Shown here in pieces: positions 6,495 to 38,207 of a DNA stretch of 41,418 nucleotides (position 1 is the stretch's first letter; every line of letters starts with the position of its first letter). The notes below the pieces were generated by a model. It saw only the letters and a program-made list of their open reading frames with translations. It had not been told where the DNA came from and did no database searches. This DNA comes from a virus: IMG/VR virus record IMGVR_UViG_3300046385_000014, positions 1-41,418 of that record, one strand, 5' to 3'. The position numbers were made by a program, and so were the translations under genes.

Positions 6495-6519
6495 TGAGTT
6501 AACTCCATTGGATTTGGCA

Positions 6520-6535
6520 TTCCAATTGTGCAACC
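6520..6535 (-). promoter_or_regulatory. Putative phage RNA polymerase promoter (start of replication genes)
   Basis: The minus strand reads GGTTGCACAATTGGAA, between the RNA polymerase stop (6555) and the next gene start (6494). The five bases upstream (CAAT before GGTTGC) are shared with the 12548 copy. Transcription would run into the small genes, SSB, endonuclease I and amidase. Confidence 0.72.
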
Positions 6536-6554
6536 ATTGCCATTTGGTAACCAA

Positions 6555-9068
6555 TTAAGCAAAACAATAACGTGACTCAACGATCTGGCTCAGATCCAGA
6601 GTCCCCTTCAGAGGCAACGGTGAGAGCTTCTCAATGTTCTTCACCGAGAGCTGCTGCACGATCTCCTCCCGGAATGACTCCAGGACTTCGACCTCGCCAT
6701 ACATCTCGCAGAACGCCTCACGCACCGTGTGGTAGAGCTGCTCGACATCCCCTGCAGTGGTCCCGAAAGAGTCGTGGATCATCGCAAAGTTATCAATGCC
6801 AGCCTGCTTGGCGCGGACCACCGTCAGCATCATGTGGGCTGCGTCACACGAGTGGACAAAGTTAGGGGCGATGCCTGAGGACTGCTTGCGGCGGTCCAGG
6901 CTGTCCTTCTCTGCGTACATCGTGAGGTACACCAGCTTGCCGTTGATGGCTGTCTTCACCTTGCGCTTCTCCAGATTGGCGTAGGCCTGCATCACGGGGA
7001 AACCGACAGGTGTCGTCCAGCGGACTGGGAGTTCTTCAGATGCAGCCAGAGAGGCGGCACCTTGGAGCCACTTCATGGCCTCACCAGCTTTCACCAGCAC
7101 CTTGTTCACAGCCACCCAGATGGCCTTCGCCATGTACTGGGCACCCTGATAGCCGTCACCTTGGAAGGGGAAGGGTTTGCCAGAGTTCTTGGCGGGACGC
7201 AGGATGTCCTCCATGAGCTGCTCCTTGAAGCCATACTCCTTGGAGCCGTAGGCCAGCGTCATGACGGAACGCTTGGTCACCTTGCGGGTGATCCCAAACT
7301 CCTTCCACTGGGCAGCGATGGCCTTGGTGCCGTGCTTGACGTAGGCCACACCCTCGTCGGTGTGCTTCAGCTCGTCTTCGGTGCCGTTGACCATATCCTC
7401 GTCAATCTGCTCCATAACCTTGTTCGCCACGAGCTGGTAGACATCGGCTGGGAGGGCACGGGGCACGAGGTTGACTGCACCTCCGCCAACTTCATCACGA
7501 AGCATCGCTGAGAAGTGCTGAATTCCAGAACATGAACCGTCCATAGCCACGGGCAGTTTCGATACGAACGACTCACCATGTTCGCTGAAACCTGCCCACT
7601 CGAAACAAAATGCGAGGAACTGCCAAGGTTTGTCAATTTCCACCTCTCCCACTGAATTGCACCATCCACGGTTGTTGTAAGGATCAGCGGCGATTGCGAT
7701 GATTTGTTCTTCATTGTCCTGTACCCAGTTAACACGGTCTTCAAAGCTGGCCTTGTCGAAGCCAGCCACGTTGGCACCGTGGATTGCCAACCATTTCCAA
7801 CCCTCAGCGCCCAAGGGTTTGCCATTGGCGAATCGCAGGAGGGCCTTCTGAAAGTCTGACCCCTGAGGATTCAGATGGGGGACCGCATAGATGCGACCAC
7901 GGAAGTCCAACTGGTACGGGAAGTAGATCTTGCGGAACTTCTCGTAGCGTCGAGCAATGCCCAACCCCATGTTGAACCCAATGCGGTGCCCGAGGATCGA
8001 CAGGTTCGCCATGTGGATCTTGGCGGCATCGATTCGGTACTGCTTCTTGGCTTCCTCGTTGGTGTCGATGTCCTCAGGCTTCTTGGGGATCGGCAGACCA
8101 TCACGAGGAGGCAAGCCAGCGATCTCAGAGCCGGTGTCCCACAAGGTGGTCATCACCTCAAACACCTGAGAATTGATCTGCCATGCTGTCTGCTGGAGGG
8201 CGTTCACCGCCTCATAGACGATGGGCATGTCGGTGTGCTTCAGCTCATCCATGTAGGCCTTGTTCTTGGACTTCACCATGCGGATGGGCTTGATGTTGGA
8301 CGAGATGTAGCCACCGTTGAACGGGGTGGTCCAATCACGGGGACGGACAACCATCGGCTCATAGACAGGGCGGAGGAACTGAGTGACCTCGTTCTTCTTT
8401 TCGATCCACTCCAGAGTCTCAGGCAGGGCCTTCACGTATTTGATGGACTGGTCCTTATCGACCTTCTGGTGAGTGATCTCGACCAGGCCAATGGATTGAA
8501 TGCAAAGGTCAAGCATCTTGATGCCGACATGTAGGCGGTCTGTACGGACCCAGCGCTTCCAGCCATCCTCCAGGCGGTCAGCCTGACGGACTGCATAGAT
8601 GTGGCGGTAGTGACCCGAGGTGCGCTTCTTGGCCCCGATCAGGATCTTCTCGTACATCTTGCGCTCGTTCTCACGGATGGCGGCATAGCGGATCTCGTCC
8701 TCAATGGCGGTCCCGATAGCCACCCCAACGAACTGCAGAGTCCTGAGGCTGGAGATACCCGACATCACAGCCTTGAGGGTCAGGAAGGCCAGCATGTGGC
8801 TGTCCACGTCCTTGACCTTGGGATAGGTCGCGGAGAAGCGAGAGGCGGCACCCTTGGAGCTGGCTTCACGCCACTCATCGATGGCCTCTGCAAGCTTGGC
8901 AAGGCGGTGCGACAGGATGGTGGTGCCGTAGGAGGTGGACTCCTCACGACCAGCCTGAATGGCCTTTGAGACATCTCGCAGATACTTCTCAGCACCCCGT
9001 TGGGTCATGCCCTCTTCGAGAGCGAGCTGGACGGACATCAAGTCCTCTTCAAGATTAACATTTTGCAT
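6555..9068 (-). CDS. Single-subunit DNA-dependent RNA polymerase (T7 gp1 type)
   Basis: An 837-aa T7-family RNA polymerase (T7: 883 aa). Clear motifs are YQLDFRGRIYAV (385-396), motif A LPVAMDGSCSGIQHF with catalytic D510, motif B RKVTKRSVMTLAYGS with K599 and Y607 (T7 K631 and Y639, same spacing), and motif C HDSFG with D766. The protein ends CFA, matching the FA foot of T7 polymerase. The likely promoter-recognition loop lies between about residues 700 and 735 (after TTPVGFPV) and differs from T7, in line with a different promoter. The ATG follows AGGAAC. A phage-type promoter motif 112 bases upstream suggests self-activation. Confidence 0.98.
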   Translation of the reverse strand: MQNVNLEEDLMSVQLALEEGMTQRGAEKYLRDVSKAIQAGREESTSYGTTILSHRLAKLAEAIDEWREASSKGAASRFSATYPKVKDVDSHMLAFLTLKAVMSGISSLRTLQFVGVAIGTAIEDEIRYAAIRENERKMYEKILIGAKKRTSGHYRHIYAVRQADRLEDGWKRWVRTDRLHVGIKMLDLCIQSIGLVEITHQKVDKDQSIKYVKALPETLEWIEKKNEVTQFLRPVYEPMVVRPRDWTTPFNGGYISSNIKPIRMVKSKNKAYMDELKHTDMPIVYEAVNALQQTAWQINSQVFEVMTTLWDTGSEIAGLPPRDGLPIPKKPEDIDTNEEAKKQYRIDAAKIHMANLSILGHRIGFNMGLGIARRYEKFRKIYFPYQLDFRGRIYAVPHLNPQGSDFQKALLRFANGKPLGAEGWKWLAIHGANVAGFDKASFEDRVNWVQDNEEQIIAIAADPYNNRGWCNSVGEVEIDKPWQFLAFCFEWAGFSEHGESFVSKLPVAMDGSCSGIQHFSAMLRDEVGGGAVNLVPRALPADVYQLVANKVMEQIDEDMVNGTEDELKHTDEGVAYVKHGTKAIAAQWKEFGITRKVTKRSVMTLAYGSKEYGFKEQLMEDILRPAKNSGKPFPFQGDGYQGAQYMAKAIWVAVNKVLVKAGEAMKWLQGAASLAASEELPVRWTTPVGFPVMQAYANLEKRKVKTAINGKLVYLTMYAEKDSLDRRKQSSGIAPNFVHSCDAAHMMLTVVRAKQAGIDNFAMIHDSFGTTAGDVEQLYHTVREAFCEMYGEVEVLESFREEIVQQLSVKNIEKLSPLPLKGTLDLSQIVESRYCFA

Positions 9069-9179
9069 TCTAATAGTTCCTCGTTTAGTGGTAACTCTAT
9101 GAGTAGTATACCTTAGTAAGAATGAGTAAGGTATATCCTAGAGATAGTCTTAGAGAGATCTCTATACTCTCTTTAGTCT
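9069..9179 (-). promoter_or_regulatory. Structured AT-rich leader of the RNA polymerase gene
   Basis: No gene fits here. The leader carries an inverted repeat with 9-bp arms TATACCTTA/TAAGGTATA (9107-9115 and 9127-9135, 11-base loop) and a palindrome AGAGATCTCT (9154-9163). The 11-mer GATAGTCTTAG (9143-9153) recurs at 14307-14317 in the putative end region. Hairpins of this kind in a T7-type leader could be RNase sites or translational control elements; no direct evidence distinguishes these. Confidence 0.45.
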
Positions 9180-9195
9180 ATCCAATTGTGCAACC
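9180..9195 (-). promoter_or_regulatory. Putative phage RNA polymerase promoter upstream of the polymerase gene itself
   Basis: The minus strand reads GGTTGCACAATTGGAT, identical over 16 bases to the copy before the primase-helicase. A hairpin ends exactly where the motif begins. It drives toward the RNA polymerase gene, implying positive autoregulation. Confidence 0.7.
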
Positions 9196-9212: not shown

Positions 9213-9340
9213 TTCTAGTTGCTTGTCAATGGTCAAGGGTTTGACACAGATTCTTGTCACATGTTGTCACTTCCTTTCCGGTGGGAAATGGTTTGTCTAT
9301 GGGCAATTGATTCCATACGGCAACGGTCTAGGTCAAACGA

Positions 9341-9373
9341 AAGAGAACCCCTTGGTTTACAAGGAGTTCTCTT
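9341..9373 (-). terminator. Strong hairpin terminator between integrase/attP and RNA polymerase
   Basis: A 14-bp stem (9341-9354 with 9360-9373) has one mismatch and a five-base loop GTTTA. On the minus strand the stem is followed by a T-rich CTTTCGTTT. It would isolate the regulator-integrase transcript from the polymerase gene; the stem is nearly symmetrical, so it may act in both directions. Confidence 0.7.
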
Positions 9374-9393: not shown

Positions 9394-9450
9394 TGGTGCG
9401 GTCAAGAGGACTCGAACCTCCACCCCTGTTACAGGACTAGCACCTCAAGC
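9394..9450 (-). other. attP core: 3' half of tRNA-Leu(GAG)
   Basis: The minus strand carries the anticodon loop TTGAGGT (anticodon GAG), the 3' anticodon strand, a long variable arm with CCTG/CAGG, the T arm GGAGG-TTCGAGT-CCTCT, the acceptor strand TGACCGC, discriminator A and an encoded CCA. The 5' half of the tRNA is missing: upstream of the anticodon loop pairing fails after two bases. This is the standard form of a phage attachment core that rebuilds the host tRNA on integration, and it lies just downstream of the integrase. The long variable arm and A73 fit leucine. It is not a functional tRNA gene by itself. Confidence 0.88.
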
Positions 9451-9534
9451 TTTATACCTTGTGAAAAAACAAGGACTTAGCTTGACACAATCACTGAAAA
9501 CAATCGTTTTTGACGCAGCAATTTTAGCCCTGTG

Positions 9535-10578
9535 TCAACCGTTGACGACCTGCAACAGTGGCATGGACGATACTTGCTCCAGAGCCTTCTTGCCTTCCAG
9601 TAGACTATCGGGACGAAGGTGCCAGTAGCGCTGTGTGGTGACGATGGATGAGTGCCCCATCCACACCTGAACGACAGCCAGAGAGGTGTTCCGCTGCACC
9701 AAGCGAGACGCACAAGTGTGCCTCAAGGTGTGAACGAGGAACTGGTTGTCATCCTCCATGCCCATGGCCGTCTTGAGGTCCACCCATTGCTTCCTCAAGG
9801 TTGCCTTGGTGAGGGAGAAGATGTTCGCTCTGTTGGACCTGCGGGTCAGGATCTCAGCCACACGGTCAGTCGCAGGGACTGCCCTCGCCTTGTCGGTCTT
9901 GGTCTCTCCAGCGTGGAGGTGGACCATCCCGTTGACGAAGTCATTAGGACGAAGACCCAGCAGCTCACCCCGGCGAAACCCTGTGTCGATCCCCACCACG
10001 ATGAAGTCACGCAGCTCGTGCATCTCAAGGTGGGTGCAGAGGTTCAACATCTTGATCTCTTCGGCCTCACTGAACCACCGAAGGCGGTGGTTGCCGGGCT
10101 TCCTGCGGATCATCTTAGGCTTGCTATCGATCCAGCCCTTATCGAGGGCCACATCCAGCATCTGAGACAGGTGGGTGACCTTATGGTTCACCGTCTGACC
10201 TCCGTTGCCTTTCTCTTCCCACGCTTCAACAGCTTCGAGGATGTCCTCAAAGGTGATGTCCTTGAGAAGGGTCTGTCCGGGGATCTCTCGGAGCACCGCA
10301 CGACAGAAGATCCGGTGGGTGCCCTGTCCATCGGGTTTATGCGTGGAGTATTTAAGCCTCCACAAGAGGTCGTGAGCATCTTGGAGTGTGTAGCCCTTGG
10401 CTTCCCGTTTTGCAGGGCTTCCTGAGGCTATTAGAGAGCTTCCTGTGGCTTTGAACCGAAGCTTAGCTTCCAGCTCAGCAGTTTCTGCTTCCTCTAGGTC
10501 TTTGTAGCTTTGCCGAAAGCGGTTTTCGAGACTTCCGACCGAGACAACAAAACTATTACCTCGTTTAGTGATGGTCAT
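9535..10578 (-). CDS. Tyrosine recombinase integrase
   Basis: A 347-aa integrase. The C-terminal catalytic domain has TGFRRGELLGLR with R202, a candidate lysine near 228, HTLRH with H283 and R286, GHSS with H309, and the nucleophile Y318 in TTQRYWH. An N-terminal arm-binding region and a SAM-like core-binding domain (about 65-160) precede it. It would recombine the tRNA-Leu core at 9394-9450 with the host gene. Its ATG overlaps the stop of the regulator gene (ATGA), so both are made from one transcript. The length and full catalytic set indicate an active enzyme. Integrases at this position, before the RNA polymerase gene, are known from some T7-like phages such as P-SSP7. Confidence 0.97.
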   Translation of the reverse strand: MTITKRGNSFVVSVGSLENRFRQSYKDLEEAETAELEAKLRFKATGSSLIASGSPAKREAKGYTLQDAHDLLWRLKYSTHKPDGQGTHRIFCRAVLREIPGQTLLKDITFEDILEAVEAWEEKGNGGQTVNHKVTHLSQMLDVALDKGWIDSKPKMIRRKPGNHRLRWFSEAEEIKMLNLCTHLEMHELRDFIVVGIDTGFRRGELLGLRPNDFVNGMVHLHAGETKTDKARAVPATDRVAEILTRRSNRANIFSLTKATLRKQWVDLKTAMGMEDDNQFLVHTLRHTCASRLVQRNTSLAVVQVWMGHSSIVTTQRYWHLRPDSLLEGKKALEQVSSMPLLQVVNG

Positions 10579-10898
10579 ACTGGTTCTCCTAGCATCTTTT
10601 TCAAGGCGATCTTACCCTTAGTAGTGAGACGAATGATCTTCTTTCTCCTTTCCATCGGGTCTTCGTAAGACTCCACAAAGTTGAGACCTTCTTCCTTGTG
10701 GCGGTTCATCTTACCAAGAGAGCTAACGTAGCGACTCGCTGTAGCAAGTCCTATGTTGGCTTTCCTAGCGACATCTGTGAGGGAGCACCCCTCTTCTTCC
10801 TGAGCAATAAAGAACAAGCACAGGAGTTGTTGTAGTGACATGTCTGGATCGACCTTTTGTACTCCAGACATCAGGTCAATTGCCTGCTTTAGTTTCAT
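10575..10898 (-). CDS. MarR-like winged-helix transcriptional regulator (candidate repressor)
   Basis: A 107-aa protein with a winged-helix core: LQQLLCLFFIAQEEEG, then CSLTDVARKANIGLATASRYVSSLGKM as the helix-turn-helix, then a charged loop and the wing RRKKIIRLTTKGKIALKKML. This layout, including the closing LTTKG, is that of MarR-type regulators. It is translationally coupled to the integrase. Two perfect 15-bp palindromes lie upstream at 10929-10943 and 11019-11033, and a plus-strand gene diverges from it. Those neighbours suggest a role in controlling lysogeny, like a phage repressor, although classical phage repressors are usually of another HTH class. The binding sites are inferred. 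Confidence 0.85.
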   Translation of the reverse strand: MKLKQAIDLMSGVQKVDPDMSLQQLLCLFFIAQEEEGCSLTDVARKANIGLATASRYVSSLGKMNRHKEEGLNFVESYEDPMERRKKIIRLTTKGKIALKKMLGEPV

Positions 10899-10928
10899 TG
10901 GTAGTCCCCTAAACGCACGTTTTGTGCG

Positions 10929-10943
10929 GTGTGAGACTCACAC
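10929..10943. promoter_or_regulatory. Perfect 15-bp palindrome, candidate operator
   Basis: GTGTGAG-A-CTCACAC has two 7-bp arms around one base. It is 31 bases before the regulator start, placing it over that gene's own promoter or leader. It has the same size and odd centre as the palindrome at 11019-11033. Confidence 0.55.
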
Positions 10944-11018
10944 ATAGGGATTCCCCTGTCAACGACTGTTTCCAGTTGGCAACCTTTGATGCACCGCAAT
11001 CTCAACCTTAGCTGGGGT

Positions 11019-11033
11019 TGACAACCGTTGTCA
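11019..11033. promoter_or_regulatory. Perfect 15-bp palindrome overlapping a TTGACA box, candidate operator
   Basis: TGACAAC-C-GTTGTCA has two 7-bp arms around one base. It overlaps TTGACA (11018-11023), a consensus -35 hexamer pointing toward the plus-strand gene at 11077; no good -10 is visible at the ideal spacing. Binding here would block that start. Confidence 0.55.
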
Positions 11034-11076
11034 GAGAGTCACTTTTACCAGACGGCAACCATTGGAGGCATTTGCT

Positions 11077-11328
11077 GTGAGGTTACCCAACAATTTGATA
11101 GCGGCAGTCAAGAAGGCAGGCGTGAAGGTGTACTTCGCAGACCGTAGGATCACCAAGCTCTGGAACCAAGAGAGGGATCACGACGATCTCATGGTCTACG
11201 GTGGGTGGTACTGGCAGCGCCACAAAAAGGGGCGTGTGGTCCAGGTTGATGAGGATGGCCCGTTCCGCACTGAATCTGCGGCCATCCGTGATGCGTTCAT
11301 CAAGTTGCAACTGAGGGTTTATCCTTAA
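11077..11328 (+). CDS. Small hypothetical protein, the only convincing plus-strand gene
   Basis: An 83-aa protein starting at GTG 11077 with a strong GGAGG ribosome site at 11064-11068. The C-terminal part, DGPFRTESAAIRDAFIKLQL, looks like a conserved phage-type motif, and the middle has MVYGGWYWQRHKKGRVVQV, a beta-rich pattern. It diverges from the MarR-like regulator across an intergenic region with two palindromes, and converges on the early operon, overlapping its last gene by 29 bases. This placement is typical of a switch gene (antirepressor or second regulator), but no DNA-binding motif is visible. The function is unknown. An upstream TTG at 11062 is possible but has no ribosome site. 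Confidence 0.68.
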   Translation: MRLPNNLIAAVKKAGVKVYFADRRITKLWNQERDHDDLMVYGGWYWQRHKKGRVVQVDEDGPFRTESAAIRDAFIKLQLRVYP

Positions 11329-12581: not shown

Positions 12582-13349
12582 TTAGGCCGCGAGTGTGACC
12601 GGGATAACGCGGCGGGAGTGGCCCTTGATGGTATCGACTACAAAGCCGGTAGTGTCATGCTTTGCAGCGCCCTTGGCATACAAAGCCACAACCACGCCCT
12701 GAGGGTCCATGTGGCGAATGTCTGAGTCGTCGCCGTCCACACAATCCAAGGCAAGGAAGGTGCTAGGGATATCCTCAACGTTACGGAACACTGCAGCGAT
12801 ACGCATGCCCCCCTCAATGGCTTGATTGACATACTTTTGGTAAGCGGGGGTGCCACTGTAAGAGAATGTGAGGTCGTAATTTGCAGGCACGTTCTTGCGG
12901 TTAGCAAGCTTGGTGTAGTCGTAAAACTGAACGTCTGGAAATGCGAGCATTGCGTTAGGGTACGTGACACCGTTACGAATGACGGGGATGCTCTCCCAGC
13001 GAATGTCTGAGGTGCCATTGAGGCGGACCAAAGGCGTCATGCCAGCGTCTGAGGCTTTGCGAATGAGACCCTCGATATTGCGGACAATCTGTACCATGAA
13101 AGAAGCGCGATCCGCATGAAACCAAAGGGCCTTATCAATGCGGCTTTGTTGCACTGAGTTGAATGCACCCCTGCCCGCACTGTACAGACAGGCCTTATCA
13201 CATGCGGCAATGGTTGCCATTGGGCAAGTGTTATGGCCCGAAATTGTGTGGGGTGCCATGTACAGAATGCCAGTCATAAAGCCATACTTTTGGCCCTTGA
13301 CGGTCTTAGCGTTTGTATCGATGGCGAGAAGCTTGCGGGATTTGATCAT
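12582..13349 (-). CDS. Conserved phage protein, gp88/DUF7227-like, unknown function
   Basis: A 255-aa early protein, by far the largest of the early genes. It opens IKSRKLLAIDTNAKTVKGQ and has CPMATIAACDKACLYSAGRG (about 42-61), whose spaced cysteines could bind a metal, then VRLNGTSDIRWESIP and FYDYTKLANR. I recall this layout from a widespread phage family described as gene product 88 or DUF7227, whose function is not known. Expression before the RNA polymerase suggests a host-takeover or anti-defence role, but that is inference from position. The ATG has AGGA upstream. The family naming is from memory and should be treated as likely, not certain. Confidence 0.75.
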   Translation of the reverse strand: MIKSRKLLAIDTNAKTVKGQKYGFMTGILYMAPHTISGHNTCPMATIAACDKACLYSAGRGAFNSVQQSRIDKALWFHADRASFMVQIVRNIEGLIRKASDAGMTPLVRLNGTSDIRWESIPVIRNGVTYPNAMLAFPDVQFYDYTKLANRKNVPANYDLTFSYSGTPAYQKYVNQAIEGGMRIAAVFRNVEDIPSTFLALDCVDGDDSDIRHMDPQGVVVALYAKGAAKHDTTGFVVDTIKGHSRRVIPVTLAA

Positions 13350-13473: not shown

Positions 13474-13532
13474 GTGCCTGCCCCTTTGAATGGTTGCGTT
13501 ATGGAAACAATTACCGAATGGAAACTGTCGTG

Positions 13533-21754: not shown

Positions 21755-24700
21755 TTACTGCGGTTGCTGAATATCAAAGAGGCCAGCTTTGGCTTTGGCT
21801 CGATACTGAATCACAGACTCAATCTGATCGTTGATGGCTTCACCCTCGTCCATTCGGAGTTTGGCGAAGGCAGCTTCTTGCAACTGACCAATGACTCTCT
21901 GCATTGCTGCAGCCTTGGCTCCCTTTTCGGCAAATGTACCGTCAGGAAGGTTCGACTTAGCGAGTTGGTAGAGAGGAACTTCAGGGTTCAACGCCCGATA
22001 GTTCTCTTGCCACACGTCATACAGGGTCCGTTTGCCGTCCTTGGCGACCACCGTGCGAAGATCCAGGTCTCCGAGGCTCTTGTGCTGCACTGGTGCCTTG
22101 AATGTTGCCCCGGTAACCCGAGACAGACGATCCATTTCAACCATGACAGCTTGAGATTCCTCAGACATTCCCTTGGTCCGCTCTTCAACCGAGGCTGTAG
22201 AGAAGATGTTCCACAAAGTTCCGGTGTCGGAGGGTCTGCGGACGTTCCCGAGGGGGTCATAGGCCATGGAAGTCTTCACACCGGGGATGCTAGTCCCCAA
22301 TGAACGGGCCAGTTTCTCATCGACCATCTGCCAGAAGTCTGCAGGATCTCGAATACCGGGGTCGTGGTCCTTAGCAATCTTGTGGAGTGTGTTGGGAACC
22401 AGCAAGAACATCTTCTCGCCCATGAACTTCAGCCATTTGTCTTCGTGCTTCTCGATGTCCTCAGCGTTCGTGAAGATCTCTGCGGTCATCCGTGCGCCTG
22501 TCACCAAGTTGGCGTCCTTGATTGCGGTTAGCACAGCAGCGAGACCCACATTGACGTGGGAGTATGCCTTCTCAATCAGGCTGTCATCGATCTCCTCACC
22601 CTGAGCCTGCTTCAGGCGCAGCTTATCGGCCCTCTCCAAGGCGTTGATCATGATCTTCACCGGGGTGGCGATAGGATCAAACAACTTGTAGGACCAAGTG
22701 GAGCCATCAGACATCTTGATTGTGTAGGGTGCCTGCAGAGGACCATCAATACGGTTTCGTTGCTGCTTGAAATCACCATAGGCTCCATCGCCTGTGATCC
22801 TGCCCTGAGCATACAGCGACAGGACAGCACCAGCGATTGCCAGCGAGGTCATGGATTCAGCCTGAGCTTTCACCTGACGGGCCATACCGTTCTTACCCGC
22901 AAGATCATTCAAGAAGTTGGGGGCAAGGAGCTGTAAGCCTGGGGTCAAACGAACCCCCTCCTCAAAGACTCGGATGGGTGTTCTGAAGAACAACTGTCCA
23001 GTCACCAAGGCCCACGAGGGGACAGCCTTAGCGCCCTTCTCATAGAGCTGGGCGATCTTGGAGGCACCACCTTCACCAGAGAAGTCCCGCTTGTAGAGAA
23101 GGTCTCGCACGTAGGCCAAGGCTTCCTCGTCGGTCCCCTTACGGAGAGCGTCAGGATTGCGCATAGCTTCACGCTCAACCCAGTCCCAGAGTTCATCACC
23201 AGTGAGACCCTTATTCACACCCTTGTTGATCAGGGGTTGAACAAGATCATCACCCTTCTCAGCACTACGGGATGCAGCGACAGCCGTCTCAGAGGCTTCC
23301 TTGATGAAGGCATTCAGGGCATCGCCCTTCAGTCCCTTCTCAGCGCCTTCCATAGCTGCCTCAGATGCCGCCTTACCGGAGACAAAGCTGTCATAGGCCA
23401 TGCGTGAGAGGAACTCGTCGGAGGCGTTCAGGACTCGTGGCAGGAAGCGAATAGCTCCAGCAGGAACCCACTTGAAGAACTTGTTGGTGTCGCTCAGGGC
23501 CAGATCACCTTCCACCAGACGGGTGCCGTCTCGTGTCAGGAGGGATTGCTCTAGGCGGTAGGCAGTCCTTGCAGCAGCAATGGCTCCACCGAAGGATGAA
23601 CGCATGGCTGAGTAGGAAGCCCCGAGTTCAGCACGAGCTGCCTTCTCGAAGGAGTTCCCGAAGACGAACTTCAAGGCAGGAGTGATCAGCGTCTTGATGG
23701 CTGAGGAGACAAAGTTGAGCTGGACAGTGGTGGCTGTGAACACGTTAGAGATCGCTGTCTCTTTGAGTTTATCCACAAAGCCTGCACTGCCTGGGGCAAT
23801 TGCTTCCCCCATCGCTTCCCTCTCACGGCGCATCTGGACAGCCAGTTTAGCGGCTCCCTCGATGTCCCCAGCTTCCTGAGCTGCCTGGATCTTGCTCTCG
23901 TACTCACCGACAACCTTCTGGACAGCAGCTTCTTGATCCGCCTTAGCGACCACCTCAGCCCACACAGGGAGTGCCTGTTCACGGGTGAGGCCCTGCTCTT
24001 CCATGATGGATTCGACAGTGATCTTGCTGGTCGATGCACCGCCATTGCGGCGATCATTCAAGATCGTACCGGCCATAGAGCCTGCAGCGTCATCAGCCAA
24101 TCCAGGAGTAGCCAATCGGTCCAGCAACCCGTCAACCTTAGCGGTCAGCTCAGCCAGCTTGGCCCCCTCTTCAGGAGTCCTGTTGGCCTTCCCGAGGAGA
24201 GCATCACGCTCCTTAATCCCTTCAGCAGCTTCCCGCTTCAGATCCCCGTTGAACATGCGCAGAGCGTTATCAACCACTCGTCGCTGCTCAGGGTGGAAGG
24301 CTCCTGTACGGAGTTGCTCCAAGGCCTGAGGGAGCTGGTCTGGTGGAAGATCCTTCAGATCCTGAACCATAGGTGCTGCGAGTTTCTCGACATCAGCCTT
24401 GGTGACTGCAGCTACAGGTTCCCCGTTGACACGAGTAGTTCGCATCCCGGTGTTCTCAACCCCAGGAACCTTGATGATAGGCTCGTCCACCCCCTTCATA
24501 TCAGGGGTCACCTGATCGGCAGGCAATCGGCCATCCTGCTGTCGTCCGGGGGCTGCTACAGATTCTGGAGGGGTAGTACCGCCCGGTGCGTTAGAGGCTG
24601 CTGTAGGGGCCTCTGGGACCGTTGCAGGTGCTTCAGGAGCGGCAGCAGCGGCAGCAGTAGTGCTGGCCTTAGAGGCAGCAGCCCCATCCTCCTTAGTCCC

Positions 24701-25990
24701 CTTGAACATATCTCGGAGTTCACCAAAGGCCTTCCCCACATAGGGGCTTGCCTTTGACGCTATGACATCCATGCCCGTGCCGAGGACCAGACCAGAGGCG
24801 GCACCAATGCCCACATCAACAGCGGTCTTACCTGCAGAGATCTCTTCACGACGACCTGCGGAGACTTCGACACCCTGCTTGATGACACTCTGGGCACCAC
24901 CGTAGACCGCACCTTCCATACCTGCGACAACGCCTGTACGGACAGCGCCAGTGACGATGGCATCCTTGGTAGCCTCAATCATGGACCGCTGGACGACCTG
25001 CTTTGCAGCCTCCTTCGCAGCGTTTCGAGCGGCCATCTTGGCAGCGAAACCAAGGCCGAGTGTGCCTACGCCAACAAGGTTCAGAGGATCGGTGACGATA
25101 CCTTTGGCAGCACGTCCAGCTCCCTCCATGGAGAACTGTGTGTTGTCATAGCTATCGAGCATGTAGAGGAAAGCCTCCTTCTGCTCTTGCGAACCTTTGG
25201 ACACCTGATAGGCGATCTGGGCCATCGACACTGTGTTGAAGTTGAAGTTGCCCATGGAGTCCTTACCCCACTCAGCAAGGTCACTCTGGCTCTTGCCCTC
25301 GTAAGGCTTCTTCTCCCAGAGTTCGTACAGAAGGGCAGATGCCTTCAGCCAGTCAGGATCAGCATTGAGGGACTTAGGGTCGATGTCTTTGCGGACATTG
25401 GCGAACGGTTTGTAGCTGCTACCAGCCGGAGCTGCCTGCCCATTGAGAGCAGCCAAGGACCACTCCATGGTCTTCTTGGGTTGGTTGTAGGGTGAGCTAG
25501 GGAGGGACGCCCAGATGTTACCGAGCTTGTTGATAGCCCCTTCCCAGTTCCCACTGTCCACATCGGCCAAAGCACCCTTGCGGCGGATCAGCTCCAAGGC
25601 GATCTTGTCCTGGCTCTCCTTAGAGAAATCCGTGACACCCAGCTTTGGAGCGACATCACGATAGGTGGTGCCTGTGATCTGATAGCGACCCGCTGCAGTG
25701 CTGGGGCCGTCACCTGTAACCACACCAACCACGCCGGGGTGCTTGGAGAAATCGGTGAAGCGCTTGCCACCAACGATCACGTCATAGTCGGCACCCTCTG
25801 CCTTAGCGAGGAAGCTGAGGAACCTCTGACGGTTCTGCTCAGGGGTTCCTGCAGGGGCAGTTGCTGCAGGTGCGGCTTTAGGAGCATCCATGGCCCAAGC
25901 AGGGACAGCAGGAGTGGTTGACTCAGTTGCCCATGCTGGTGCTGCCTGTGGAGCATCCTCAGTTGCCCACGAGGGAGCGGTAGTAGCCAT
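21755..25990 (-). CDS. Giant internal virion protein (T7 gp16 position) with lambda-endolysin-like GH104 transglycosylase domain
   Basis: A 1,411-aa protein, the largest gene. Residues 1-45 hold three imperfect PxWAT/PAWAM repeats. Residues 52-180 resemble lambda R endolysin (GH104): RQRFLSFLAKAEG with E65 as the likely catalytic residue, YDVIVGGKRFTDF, STAAGRYQITGT, and GNIWASLPSS. The middle holds Ala/Pro-rich linkers and long helical regions; the C-terminus has RMTAEIFTNAEDIEKHEDKW and later segments like the T7 gp16 channel core. It is ejected into the cell, where the lytic domain locally opens the murein and the rest forms the trans-envelope conduit with gp14 and gp15. T7 gp16 is 1,318 aa but uses an SLT-type lysozyme. 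Confidence 0.93.
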   Translation of the reverse strand: MATTAPSWATEDAPQAAPAWATESTTPAVPAWAMDAPKAAPAATAPAGTPEQNRQRFLSFLAKAEGADYDVIVGGKRFTDFSKHPGVVGVVTGDGPSTAAGRYQITGTTYRDVAPKLGVTDFSKESQDKIALELIRRKGALADVDSGNWEGAINKLGNIWASLPSSPYNQPKKTMEWSLAALNGQAAPAGSSYKPFANVRKDIDPKSLNADPDWLKASALLYELWEKKPYEGKSQSDLAEWGKDSMGNFNFNTVSMAQIAYQVSKGSQEQKEAFLYMLDSYDNTQFSMEGAGRAAKGIVTDPLNLVGVGTLGLGFAAKMAARNAAKEAAKQVVQRSMIEATKDAIVTGAVRTGVVAGMEGAVYGGAQSVIKQGVEVSAGRREEISAGKTAVDVGIGAASGLVLGTGMDVIASKASPYVGKAFGELRDMFKGTKEDGAAASKASTTAAAAAAPEAPATVPEAPTAASNAPGGTTPPESVAAPGRQQDGRLPADQVTPDMKGVDEPIIKVPGVENTGMRTTRVNGEPVAAVTKADVEKLAAPMVQDLKDLPPDQLPQALEQLRTGAFHPEQRRVVDNALRMFNGDLKREAAEGIKERDALLGKANRTPEEGAKLAELTAKVDGLLDRLATPGLADDAAGSMAGTILNDRRNGGASTSKITVESIMEEQGLTREQALPVWAEVVAKADQEAAVQKVVGEYESKIQAAQEAGDIEGAAKLAVQMRREREAMGEAIAPGSAGFVDKLKETAISNVFTATTVQLNFVSSAIKTLITPALKFVFGNSFEKAARAELGASYSAMRSSFGGAIAAARTAYRLEQSLLTRDGTRLVEGDLALSDTNKFFKWVPAGAIRFLPRVLNASDEFLSRMAYDSFVSGKAASEAAMEGAEKGLKGDALNAFIKEASETAVAASRSAEKGDDLVQPLINKGVNKGLTGDELWDWVEREAMRNPDALRKGTDEEALAYVRDLLYKRDFSGEGGASKIAQLYEKGAKAVPSWALVTGQLFFRTPIRVFEEGVRLTPGLQLLAPNFLNDLAGKNGMARQVKAQAESMTSLAIAGAVLSLYAQGRITGDGAYGDFKQQRNRIDGPLQAPYTIKMSDGSTWSYKLFDPIATPVKIMINALERADKLRLKQAQGEEIDDSLIEKAYSHVNVGLAAVLTAIKDANLVTGARMTAEIFTNAEDIEKHEDKWLKFMGEKMFLLVPNTLHKIAKDHDPGIRDPADFWQMVDEKLARSLGTSIPGVKTSMAYDPLGNVRRPSDTGTLWNIFSTASVEERTKGMSEESQAVMVEMDRLSRVTGATFKAPVQHKSLGDLDLRTVVAKDGKRTLYDVWQENYRALNPEVPLYQLAKSNLPDGTFAEKGAKAAAMQRVIGQLQEAAFAKLRMDEGEAINDQIESVIQYRAKAKAGLFDIQQPQ

Positions 25991-36230: not shown

Positions 36231-38207
36231 TTATCTGATTGGGCAAGCGCCAGTTGAACATTCTTCACCCTGAATCTCATCCAAGCTGTTCGCTTGGTCG
36301 ATCTCTAGGGGCTGAATCTGAGCGGCATATGTCTCGTAGGCTTCCTTGGTCACCACCTCTTGTGGGAGGTACATGTAGCCCAAGTCCTTAGCTGTCTTTG
36401 TGGGATCAGCACGGAACAGGAAGCTCACACCAACGTACACGTTCCAGTTCTCCAGCAACCAATCGACAATGGCGGGAACCTCATCGACTGAGTAGGAGAT
36501 CGTCGCTGAGACGTTCTGCTGGCACCAGTTCTCCATGAGCATCTTGTAACGCTCCAACTGACCAATGGCTGACTCAAGGTTGACCTCCATCTCGACACCG
36601 TTCTTGACGAACTTATCGAAGGGGACATCATCCCAGCGAACAGGGAACGTGATCAGGACGGACTCATTGTCTGTCGGGTTGTCGAACACACGGTAGCCTG
36701 CAGCACGGCACAGGGGCACCAGAGGATCATGCTTGGAGAAGTTCACGTTGTTGAAGACGTACTTCCCTAGTGGCTTGTGGACACCCTCTGTAGTGTCCAT
36801 GATCTTACTGAGTGTCCCGCTGGGCTTGATTGTGGTGACGTTCTTAGGTCGTGGAGTCCCAAGCTCATCAGCCATGCTATAAGCACCTGAAGTAGCTGTT
36901 CGCTGCAACTCAGTGTAGTCGTATGGTCCCAAGTCTGGCCGTCGAACGACACCTGTAATGCCGACTCCACACAACCGCAGGAAGTCGTTGTTAAGGTGCC
37001 AGGCTTCTTGGAGAATACCATCACGGAGATTAACACAGGTTTGTCGGTAGTTTGCGCGTGAGGCAAGATGTACCGCTCTGCGAAGTCCCGAAGAGTCACC
37101 TTTGAATTTTCCAACGTCCACCTCCGTCAGGTTACAGAATGATTTGTTGCCGAGCAGGATCTCAGCACAGGGGTTGCAGCCTTTGAACCAAGGTGCTCGC
37201 TTGGTGGCAGTGACACCGTTGATGAAGCCGGGTTCTGAACCACCGGATTCAACCATCAGGTCAAAGATGTGGGCCAGCTCATCACGGGAGGGCTTCGAGC
37301 GGAACAACAGGGAGTTGTTCGACTGAGCACGTTGGATGTTGGAGACCCACCAGTCCTTCTTGGCTACAGCAAACTCTTGCCACTCATCCTCACCATAGGC
37401 GAACAGAGCAATTTCCGCAGAGCGTCGAGAGCTGAGTACAGTACCGAGCCAATTGACAACATCAAGTATGTCAATACGAGTAAGCAAGCTGCCAGCACGG
37501 CGATTGAGGATGTGAAAAATTGCTTCATATGCTTTGGCGATGGCGGCATCACCTGAGGAAATCCAGCCGTAGCCTTTGAGGCGTTCACCAGCAGGACGGA
37601 TCTGAGAGAAGTCCAAGACCAGCTTATCGGCTGGGTGGGGGTGAGCCATGAGTTTACCCACGGACTTAGCCCAGGCTTCTGCGGAGTCTCCTACTTGGAT
37701 CGTCCACGTCTTTGTCGCCGGGTCGTAGCTCTCTTTGTTCGCTTCCTCACCACCCTTTTCGGTTCGGTTGGAGCGGACCACTTCAAGAGATGCGATGGGC
37801 TTGCGGAACCCGGTAAGCTGGCCCACCACAGGAGAGAAGCCAACACCACAGCCCTGAAGCAGGAGCCACAGTACGTCAACAGTATCTTGAACGGATTCGA
37901 CATTGGTAAAACTACAGTTGAATTGAGAGGCCTCACGAGACTTTGCAACGGAGGTGCCACCGAGCCAGAGGGTTCGGCCTGACATGAGAACCTTGCGATC
38001 CAGCATGAGCTGACGGAGTTCTTCGAGTTCCGAGAACACACCGTCATCACCTTCAGGGAGACCAAGCGCCCGGTTCCAGAGCCATTCTTGGTGACCAATG
38101 ACTCGGTCTACGGTTTCTTCCCACGTCTCGAAGTTCTTACCAGTGTCGTCAGTGGGGCGGTTGTAAGTGCGGCGTGTAATGAGCTGCGCACGGAGGGAGG
38201 GATTCAT
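36231..38207 (-). CDS. Ribonucleoside-triphosphate reductase, class II (adenosylcobalamin-dependent, monomeric type)
   Basis: A 658-aa reductase that makes deoxynucleotides for phage DNA. It starts RRTYNRPTDD and has MSGRTLWLGGT, QFNCSFTNVESVQDTVDVLW with C98, GVGFSPVVGQL, and NPCAEILLGNKSFCNL with the radical-site C347 and redox partner C358. The C-terminal shuttle pair is C650 and C655 (CSTGAC). This layout and length match the RtpR-type class II enzymes, which need host vitamin B12 and no small subunit. Its start overlaps the HNH stop (TAATG). No radical-tyrosine subunit gene is present, consistent with class II. Confidence 0.92.
   Translation of the reverse strand: MNPSLRAQLITRRTYNRPTDDTGKNFETWEETVDRVIGHQEWLWNRALGLPEGDDGVFSELEELRQLMLDRKVLMSGRTLWLGGTSVAKSREASQFNCSFTNVESVQDTVDVLWLLLQGCGVGFSPVVGQLTGFRKPIASLEVVRSNRTEKGGEEANKESYDPATKTWTIQVGDSAEAWAKSVGKLMAHPHPADKLVLDFSQIRPAGERLKGYGWISSGDAAIAKAYEAIFHILNRRAGSLLTRIDILDVVNWLGTVLSSRRSAEIALFAYGEDEWQEFAVAKKDWWVSNIQRAQSNNSLLFRSKPSRDELAHIFDLMVESGGSEPGFINGVTATKRAPWFKGCNPCAEILLGNKSFCNLTEVDVGKFKGDSSGLRRAVHLASRANYRQTCVNLRDGILQEAWHLNNDFLRLCGVGITGVVRRPDLGPYDYTELQRTATSGAYSMADELGTPRPKNVTTIKPSGTLSKIMDTTEGVHKPLGKYVFNNVNFSKHDPLVPLCRAAGYRVFDNPTDNESVLITFPVRWDDVPFDKFVKNGVEMEVNLESAIGQLERYKMLMENWCQQNVSATISYSVDEVPAIVDWLLENWNVYVGVSFLFRADPTKTAKDLGYMYLPQEVVTKEAYETYAAQIQPLEIDQANSLDEIQGEECSTGACPIR

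Follow-up and report, generated by a model that had tools for sequence, protein, structure and literature searches.

The viral DNA analyzed here (the window, i.e., the whole stretch of 41,418 nucleotides) likely carries a lysogeny module of the type seen in the temperate T7-like phages LUZ100, Pasto, and HTVC019P, with a putative switch that would combine a MarR-type regulator with integration. As far as can be read from the sequence, the set of lysogeny parts is complete and includes an integrase, a MarR-type regulator, an attachment site, a terminator, and repeated operator-like sites. An earlier note on this DNA had proposed a lysogeny module inside a T7-type genome, and this was borne out by a relative in which the same layout forms a complete prophage, bounded by attL and attR, in a Pseudomonas putida chromosome.

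Genome layout and genes of the lysogeny module

The 41.4-kb virus record is of T7 type, with most genes on the minus strand, and encodes a DNA polymerase, terminase, portal-type adaptor, major head protein, primase-helicase, gp2.5-like SSB, endonuclease I, amidase, and a T7-type single-subunit RNA polymerase (837 aa; 6555–9068, minus strand; phrog_414, E 2e-284; PF00940). The integrase gene, the MarR-type gene, and a divergent gene are sited between the early genes and the RNA polymerase gene. Elsewhere in the window, a ribonucleotide reductase gene (36231–38207; phrog_367, E 4e-168) adjoins the portal-type gene, an unusual spot for it in a T7-type genome, and a protein of 1411 aa (21755–25990), endolysin-like over a stretch close to its N-terminus, is probably an internal virion or tail protein.

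The tyrosine integrase (347 aa; 9535–10578, minus strand) matched PF00589 (E 1.5e-20) and phrog_1 (E 1e-49), and its gene lies just upstream of the T7-type RNA polymerase gene, as in temperate T7-like modules. The catalytic set of tyrosine recombinases (R, K, H, R, H/W, Y) is fully present as R202, K227, H283, R286, H309, and Y318, and all six residues were invariant in an alignment with 21 relatives, which agrees with the earlier description of a full-length enzyme with intact catalytic residues. The ATGA coupling to the MarR-like gene was likewise found, as an overlap at 10575–10578.

That neighboring gene (10575–10898), which adjoins the integrase gene on the same (minus) strand, again as in temperate T7-like modules, encodes a MarR-type winged-helix regulator of 107 aa, assigned by PHROGs, profile, and fold comparisons. 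Its scores against the Pfam MarR and MarR_2 models fell below the gathering cut-off; it matched phrog_9665 (“transcriptional regulator”) at E 1e-22 and, in a profile match, the MarR protein of LUZ100 at E 7e-23. The AlphaFold model (pLDDT 88) has a winged helix-turn-helix fold and matched solved MarR-family structures in Foldseek, including MexR, MarR, and MepR (best E 9e-5), and the protein is shorter than the matched MarR chains (124–180 residues). Relatives of the regulator were found in 47 phage records, mostly from pelagiphages, T7-like cyanophages, roseophages, and rhizobiophages. Transcriptomics of LUZ100 found its MarR and integrase genes to be co-transcribed, and MarR-based control of lysogeny, with repression of the polymerase, was proposed for that phage (PMC10134795); the repression proposal follows a 2022 study of Pasto. 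Given the 47 records and the co-transcription in LUZ100, a MarR-type regulator in the integrase transcript can no longer be called unusual, as it had been on first inspection. The accompanying suggestion of a possibly distinct lysogeny switch found no support, since temperate T7-like phages usually have MarR beside integrase (LUZ100, pelagiphages, P-SSP7).

On the other side of the regulator, the divergent gene (11077–11328, plus strand) encodes 83 aa of no known family, with no match in Pfam or PHROGs and no fold match. Its best start is a GTG at 11077 preceded by GGAGG, and the gene is conserved in 15 aligned relatives; its reported place beside the module was upheld. It is oriented away from MarR in 19 of the 20 testable loci. 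An obligate partnership with MarR was considered and rejected, because one locus (L133) has a homologue without MarR; there the homologue (L133:3001–3249) belongs to a different phage and lies beside a 655-aa replication-type gene with no neighboring MarR. Guessing from position, the divergent protein is probably an antagonist or an excision helper.

Attachment region between the integrase and polymerase genes

Between the integrase and RNA polymerase genes lies the attachment core (9394–9450, minus strand), which on the polymerase strand corresponds to the 3' 57 nt of tRNA-Leu(GAG), ends in CCA, and is kept in relatives. ARAGORN and Rfam searches over the window found no tRNA, and the core is the 3' half only. 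Its best match was to an intact chromosomal tRNA-Leu(GAG), with 55 of 57 bases identical, and an equivalent 55-bp core forms attL and attR in the P. putida prophage. The tRNA-derived core noted earlier next to the module is thus a 3' piece of tRNA-Leu(GAG). Because phage DNA and the polymerase gene continue after it, the core probably represents attP and the record the free phage form.

Four candidate arm-type integrase sites surround the core, two on the integrase side (TGTGTCA at 9483–9489 and TGACACA at 9531–9537) and two on the polymerase side (TGTGTCA at 9242–9248 and TGTGACA at 9255–9261). They were picked out by enrichment of TGTGWCA, the density of which across 15 genomes was 9.6 per kb in the regions between the integrase and polymerase genes vs 0.24 per kb elsewhere (40-fold), and their placement on both sides of the core fits integrase arm sites. 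The core is followed directly, ahead of the polymerase gene, by an intrinsic terminator (9341–9373, minus strand), a strong hairpin with a T-rich tail built on a 14-bp inverted repeat that is 93% complementary. In most cassette-bearing relatives, its stem is kept while the sequence has changed, and a terminator occupies the same place in the P. putida prophage.

The tRNA at this position varies among relatives. Eight of them (L025, L029, L030, L040, L044, L062, L065, and L068) have different tRNA genes, as fragments or whole, between the integrase and polymerase genes (Leu with anticodons TAG, TAA, and CAA, and perhaps Phe), which indicates that the target changes while the layout stays. In one further relative (L013:4355–6125), two copies of the attachment core lie about 1.3 kb apart between these genes with other ORFs between them, an arrangement that looks as though attP had captured cargo. 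Another viral contig (L049:4605–4816) carries tRNA-His and tRNA-Leu(TAG) at this place, apparently host genes taken along after excision, or else a sign of tandem prophages.

Prophages of relatives and searches for the host site

Scanning bacterial genomes with the polymerase recovered one close relative, in P. putida HAI-2, with identities to the window of 61% for the RNA polymerase, 33% for MarR, and 47% for the integrase. The polymerase start in this genome lies 595 bp past the end of a tRNA-Arg/His/Leu(TAG) cluster, whose tRNA-Leu has been restored upstream of the polymerase gene, and the integrase, adjoined by MarR, lies 38 kb beyond the polymerase. A 55-bp direct repeat bounds the element at 599808–599862, where it covers the 3' portion of this intact tRNA, and at 640301–640355, just after the integrase. 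The prophage is complete and reads tRNA-Leu, terminator, polymerase gene, and so on to MarR, integrase, and attR, an order from which it follows that integration sets the MarR-integrase operon and the early promoters apart from the polymerase gene. A decayed prophage in a second species of the same genus has the same junction of tRNA-Leu, terminator, and RNA polymerase gene, with the polymerase gene broken.

The search of candidate hosts proposed in the earlier note succeeded in part. A near attB was found (the 55/57 match) and so were attL and attR of a relative's prophage (in HAI-2), while an exact attB was not, nor was a prophage of this very phage in the bacterial genomes scanned with the polymerase or the integrase. 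No exact attB pattern turned up in 369 genomes from the class to which P. putida belongs, nor in 249 from the phylum and 398 from one order, the latter two sets giving tRNA-Leu(GAG) matches of up to 97%; the integrase was absent from 248 genomes of a family with good attB-like tRNAs. An attB-like match on a Methylobacterium bullatum “plasmid” was rejected as a prophage, as the tRNA-Leu(GAG) there is intact. Two genomes of another group (L140 and L141) have a tRNA-Leu(GAG) identical to the one in this record (L096, NZ_LR743510.1), whose label may be wrong.

These results bear on whether integration leads to true lysogeny. The phage might instead be essentially lytic, using its integrase and attP for transient insertion, with MarR only tuning early expression. 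Such behavior would agree with the T7-like cyanophages S-TIP37 and P-SSP7, which integrate into tRNA-Leu but gave no stable lysogens (PMC8776855), with LUZ100, for which stable lysogens were not obtained (PMC10134795), and with our finding no prophage of this phage. The failure to obtain stable lysogens of LUZ100 or the T7-like cyanophages suggests that integration may be transient. Yet the complete prophage of one relative and the decayed one in a second species indicate that integration can last in the wider group, and T7-like prophage elements have been reported in 78 Pseudomonas genomes (PMC10134795). We regard integration without lysogeny as unlikely and retain the reading of a temperate phage.

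Operator-like palindromes and promoters

A 16-bp palindrome (GTTKCCANNTGGMAAC) was spotted by eye, after which a position weight matrix (PWM) was trained on relatives only. With this matrix, the window contained six matches of at least 12 bits, compared to 0.78 expected from shuffled sequences (maximum 3, n=60), and the top eight matches all fell within 6.5–13.5 kb. A plain count of the consensus (11/14 matches) did not exceed the shuffles; only the relative-trained PWM did. The positions of the sites are conserved in relatives, and those in three relatives left out of training (L010, L012, and L016) agreed.

One copy (GTTGCCAACTGGAAAC, 21.6 bits; 10968–10983) sits just upstream of the MarR −35 element; most relatives have it as well, at −84 to −92. 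For the MarR-integrase operon, the putative host promoter has its −35 TTGACA at 10957–10962 (minus strand) and a −10 candidate at 10934–10939; TTGAC is found at the same place in most relatives, with a 17-nt spacer, and the −10 is weak in the window but good in L011, L020, and L062. The divergent gene has its own putative host promoter (TTGACA-17-ACTTTT; 11018–11046, plus strand), which overlaps a palindrome TGACAACCGTTGTCA at 11019–11033 and whose −10 and start are overlapped by a further operator-like copy of 13.1 bits (11044–11059). The paired palindromes of the earlier note were thus recovered, with the sites at 10968–10983, 11019–11033, and 11044–11059 conserved in position among relatives. 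The positions of the first and last of these would fit repression of the divergent gene together with activation, or tolerance, of MarR's own promoter.

Further copies surround the polymerase gene. Upstream of it lies GTTGCCGTATGGAATC (16.3 bits; 9309–9324), found at about −245 to −257 from the RNA polymerase start in most close relatives, together with a weaker match at 9274. Three nucleotides after the gene lies GTTACCAAATGGCAAT (20.3 bits; 6536–6551), kept in the same place in about 10 relatives. In the early region, two copies (10.3 and 17.8 bits, starting at 13493 and 13510; 13493–13525) lie upstream of gp88, where a palindrome is also found in five relatives, and one of 15.8 bits lies inside gp88 (13213–13228). 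The motif was missing upstream of the RNA polymerase gene in distant MarR-bearing relatives.

A putative promoter of the phage polymerase (GTTGCACAATTGGATAG; 9178–9194, minus strand) precedes the polymerase gene, and a second one (6518–6534, minus strand) directly follows the palindrome at 6536. The motif has four copies in the window (up to 3 mismatches), all on the minus strand, against 0.06 expected, and its CAATTGGAT core is kept in most close relatives. We also weighed, and dropped, a host promoter of the polymerase gene that would overlap the 9309 palindrome, as its −10 is weak and variable.

We predict the 16-bp palindrome to be a candidate operator, which MarR may read.

Loss of the module in close relatives

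In two relatives with a polymerase 83% identical to that of the window (L018 and L019), a single block is missing that comprises the divergent gene, MarR, integrase, core, terminator, and the main palindrome upstream of the polymerase gene. At the junction, a short segment that matches the divergent gene's end is joined to an arm-type site. The earlier note had asked whether relatives without the module keep the same regulation, and the answer was divided. The terminator and main polymerase-upstream palindrome were gone, while other palindromes were kept: L018, a 37.5-kb record in which no MarR was detected, retains copies of 21.0, 15.3, 15.2, and 14.5 bits, the strong ones after the RNA polymerase gene and in the early region. 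These copies reflect either a recent loss of the module or another reader of the sites, and they are the main weakness of the operator reading.

The palindrome could accordingly be read by another phage or host factor, for example one tied to the phage promoters or replication. Besides the copies in L018, the same 21-bit copy occurs in L061, though the contig of the latter starts inside the RNA polymerase gene. Against this, most close relatives that carry the module have two copies flanking the promoters of MarR and the divergent gene, at distances that are conserved, the main polymerase-upstream copy disappeared together with the module in L018, and recent loss would also explain the copies remaining there. 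We consider a different reader rather doubtful and keep MarR as the predicted one.

Complete loss in some relatives might also mean that the module in the window is an inherited remnant that no longer functions. This appears highly improbable, as all reading frames are open, the catalytic residues are invariant, and the attP arms, terminator, and start codons are kept; the module is moreover conserved across relatives over integrase identities of 37 to 86%.

Comparison with known temperate phages

The window represents a member of a known temperate T7-like kind, in which MarR and integrase before the polymerase gene have already been reported. Like LUZ100, it has MarR followed by integrase ahead of a T7-type polymerase gene, a terminator after the integrase, a phage promoter before the polymerase gene, and tRNA-Leu nearby, with integrases 35% identical. 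LUZ100 differs in carrying a complete tRNA-Leu between MarR and integrase on the opposite strand, whereas this phage has the 3' half of a tRNA between the integrase and polymerase genes on the same strand. In the HTVC019P-type pelagiphages and P-SSP7, too, a MarR-type gene (gp0.7 in P-SSP7) and an integrase gene precede the polymerase gene, and integration is into tRNA-Leu, but sequence identity is weak (about 30%) and the hosts are other ones; in P-SSP7, an attachment core has also been reported downstream of the integrase (PMC8776855). The nearest named phage is Bordetella phage vB_BbrP_BB8 (Gyeongsanvirus), with 65% identity in the RNA polymerase and 45% in the integrase just before it, in which, however, no MarR relative was detectable at that place and a 278-bp unnamed gene precedes the integrase. 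The HAI-2 prophage resembles the window in the position of attP between the integrase and polymerase genes and differs in its target, tRNA-Leu(TAG) rather than tRNA-Leu(GAG), and in that the palindrome was not found upstream of its RNA polymerase gene. The branch of this phage has a conserved divergent gene, a conserved set of operator-like palindromes, and the predicted attachment core between the integrase and polymerase genes.

A possible switch and its meaning

Tentatively, and with less confidence than for the module itself, we propose that integration is part of the switch, with the polymerase gene placed behind a host tRNA and a terminator, a MarR regulon defined by one 16-bp palindrome, and the divergent protein as antagonist or excision factor. 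Early host promoters would express MarR and integrase. At high levels, MarR would keep the divergent and polymerase genes in check, along with the first phage promoter, and under these conditions the integrase would insert the genome into the host tRNA-Leu gene. Since the core sits between the integrase and polymerase genes, insertion would rebuild the tRNA immediately ahead of the polymerase gene; there, the phage terminator would block read-through from the tRNA. Insertion would also move the early promoters and the MarR-integrase operon to the other prophage end. Because attP has the terminated MarR-integrase operon on one side and the polymerase gene on the other, the latter would be cut off from every early promoter and fall silent, supporting dormancy. 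The mycobacteriophage BPs offers a likeness in that integration itself alters expression of the key switch gene. The attP of BPs lies inside the repressor gene (PMC4557955), whereas the core of this phage lies between the integrase and polymerase genes, so that integration-dependent immunity of the BPs kind, with attP inside the repressor gene, does not apply here.

Overall, comparison of some 40 module-bearing relatives and two prophages provides, from sequence evidence, a concrete layout for temperate T7-like phages, covering the place of insertion, the predicted fate of the polymerase gene on insertion, and candidate regulator sites, and showing as well how a single step of module loss can yield a module-less relative. 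With one protein and a few short DNA fragments, it can now be tested directly whether MarR controls lysogeny in T7-like phages, and how it may do so.
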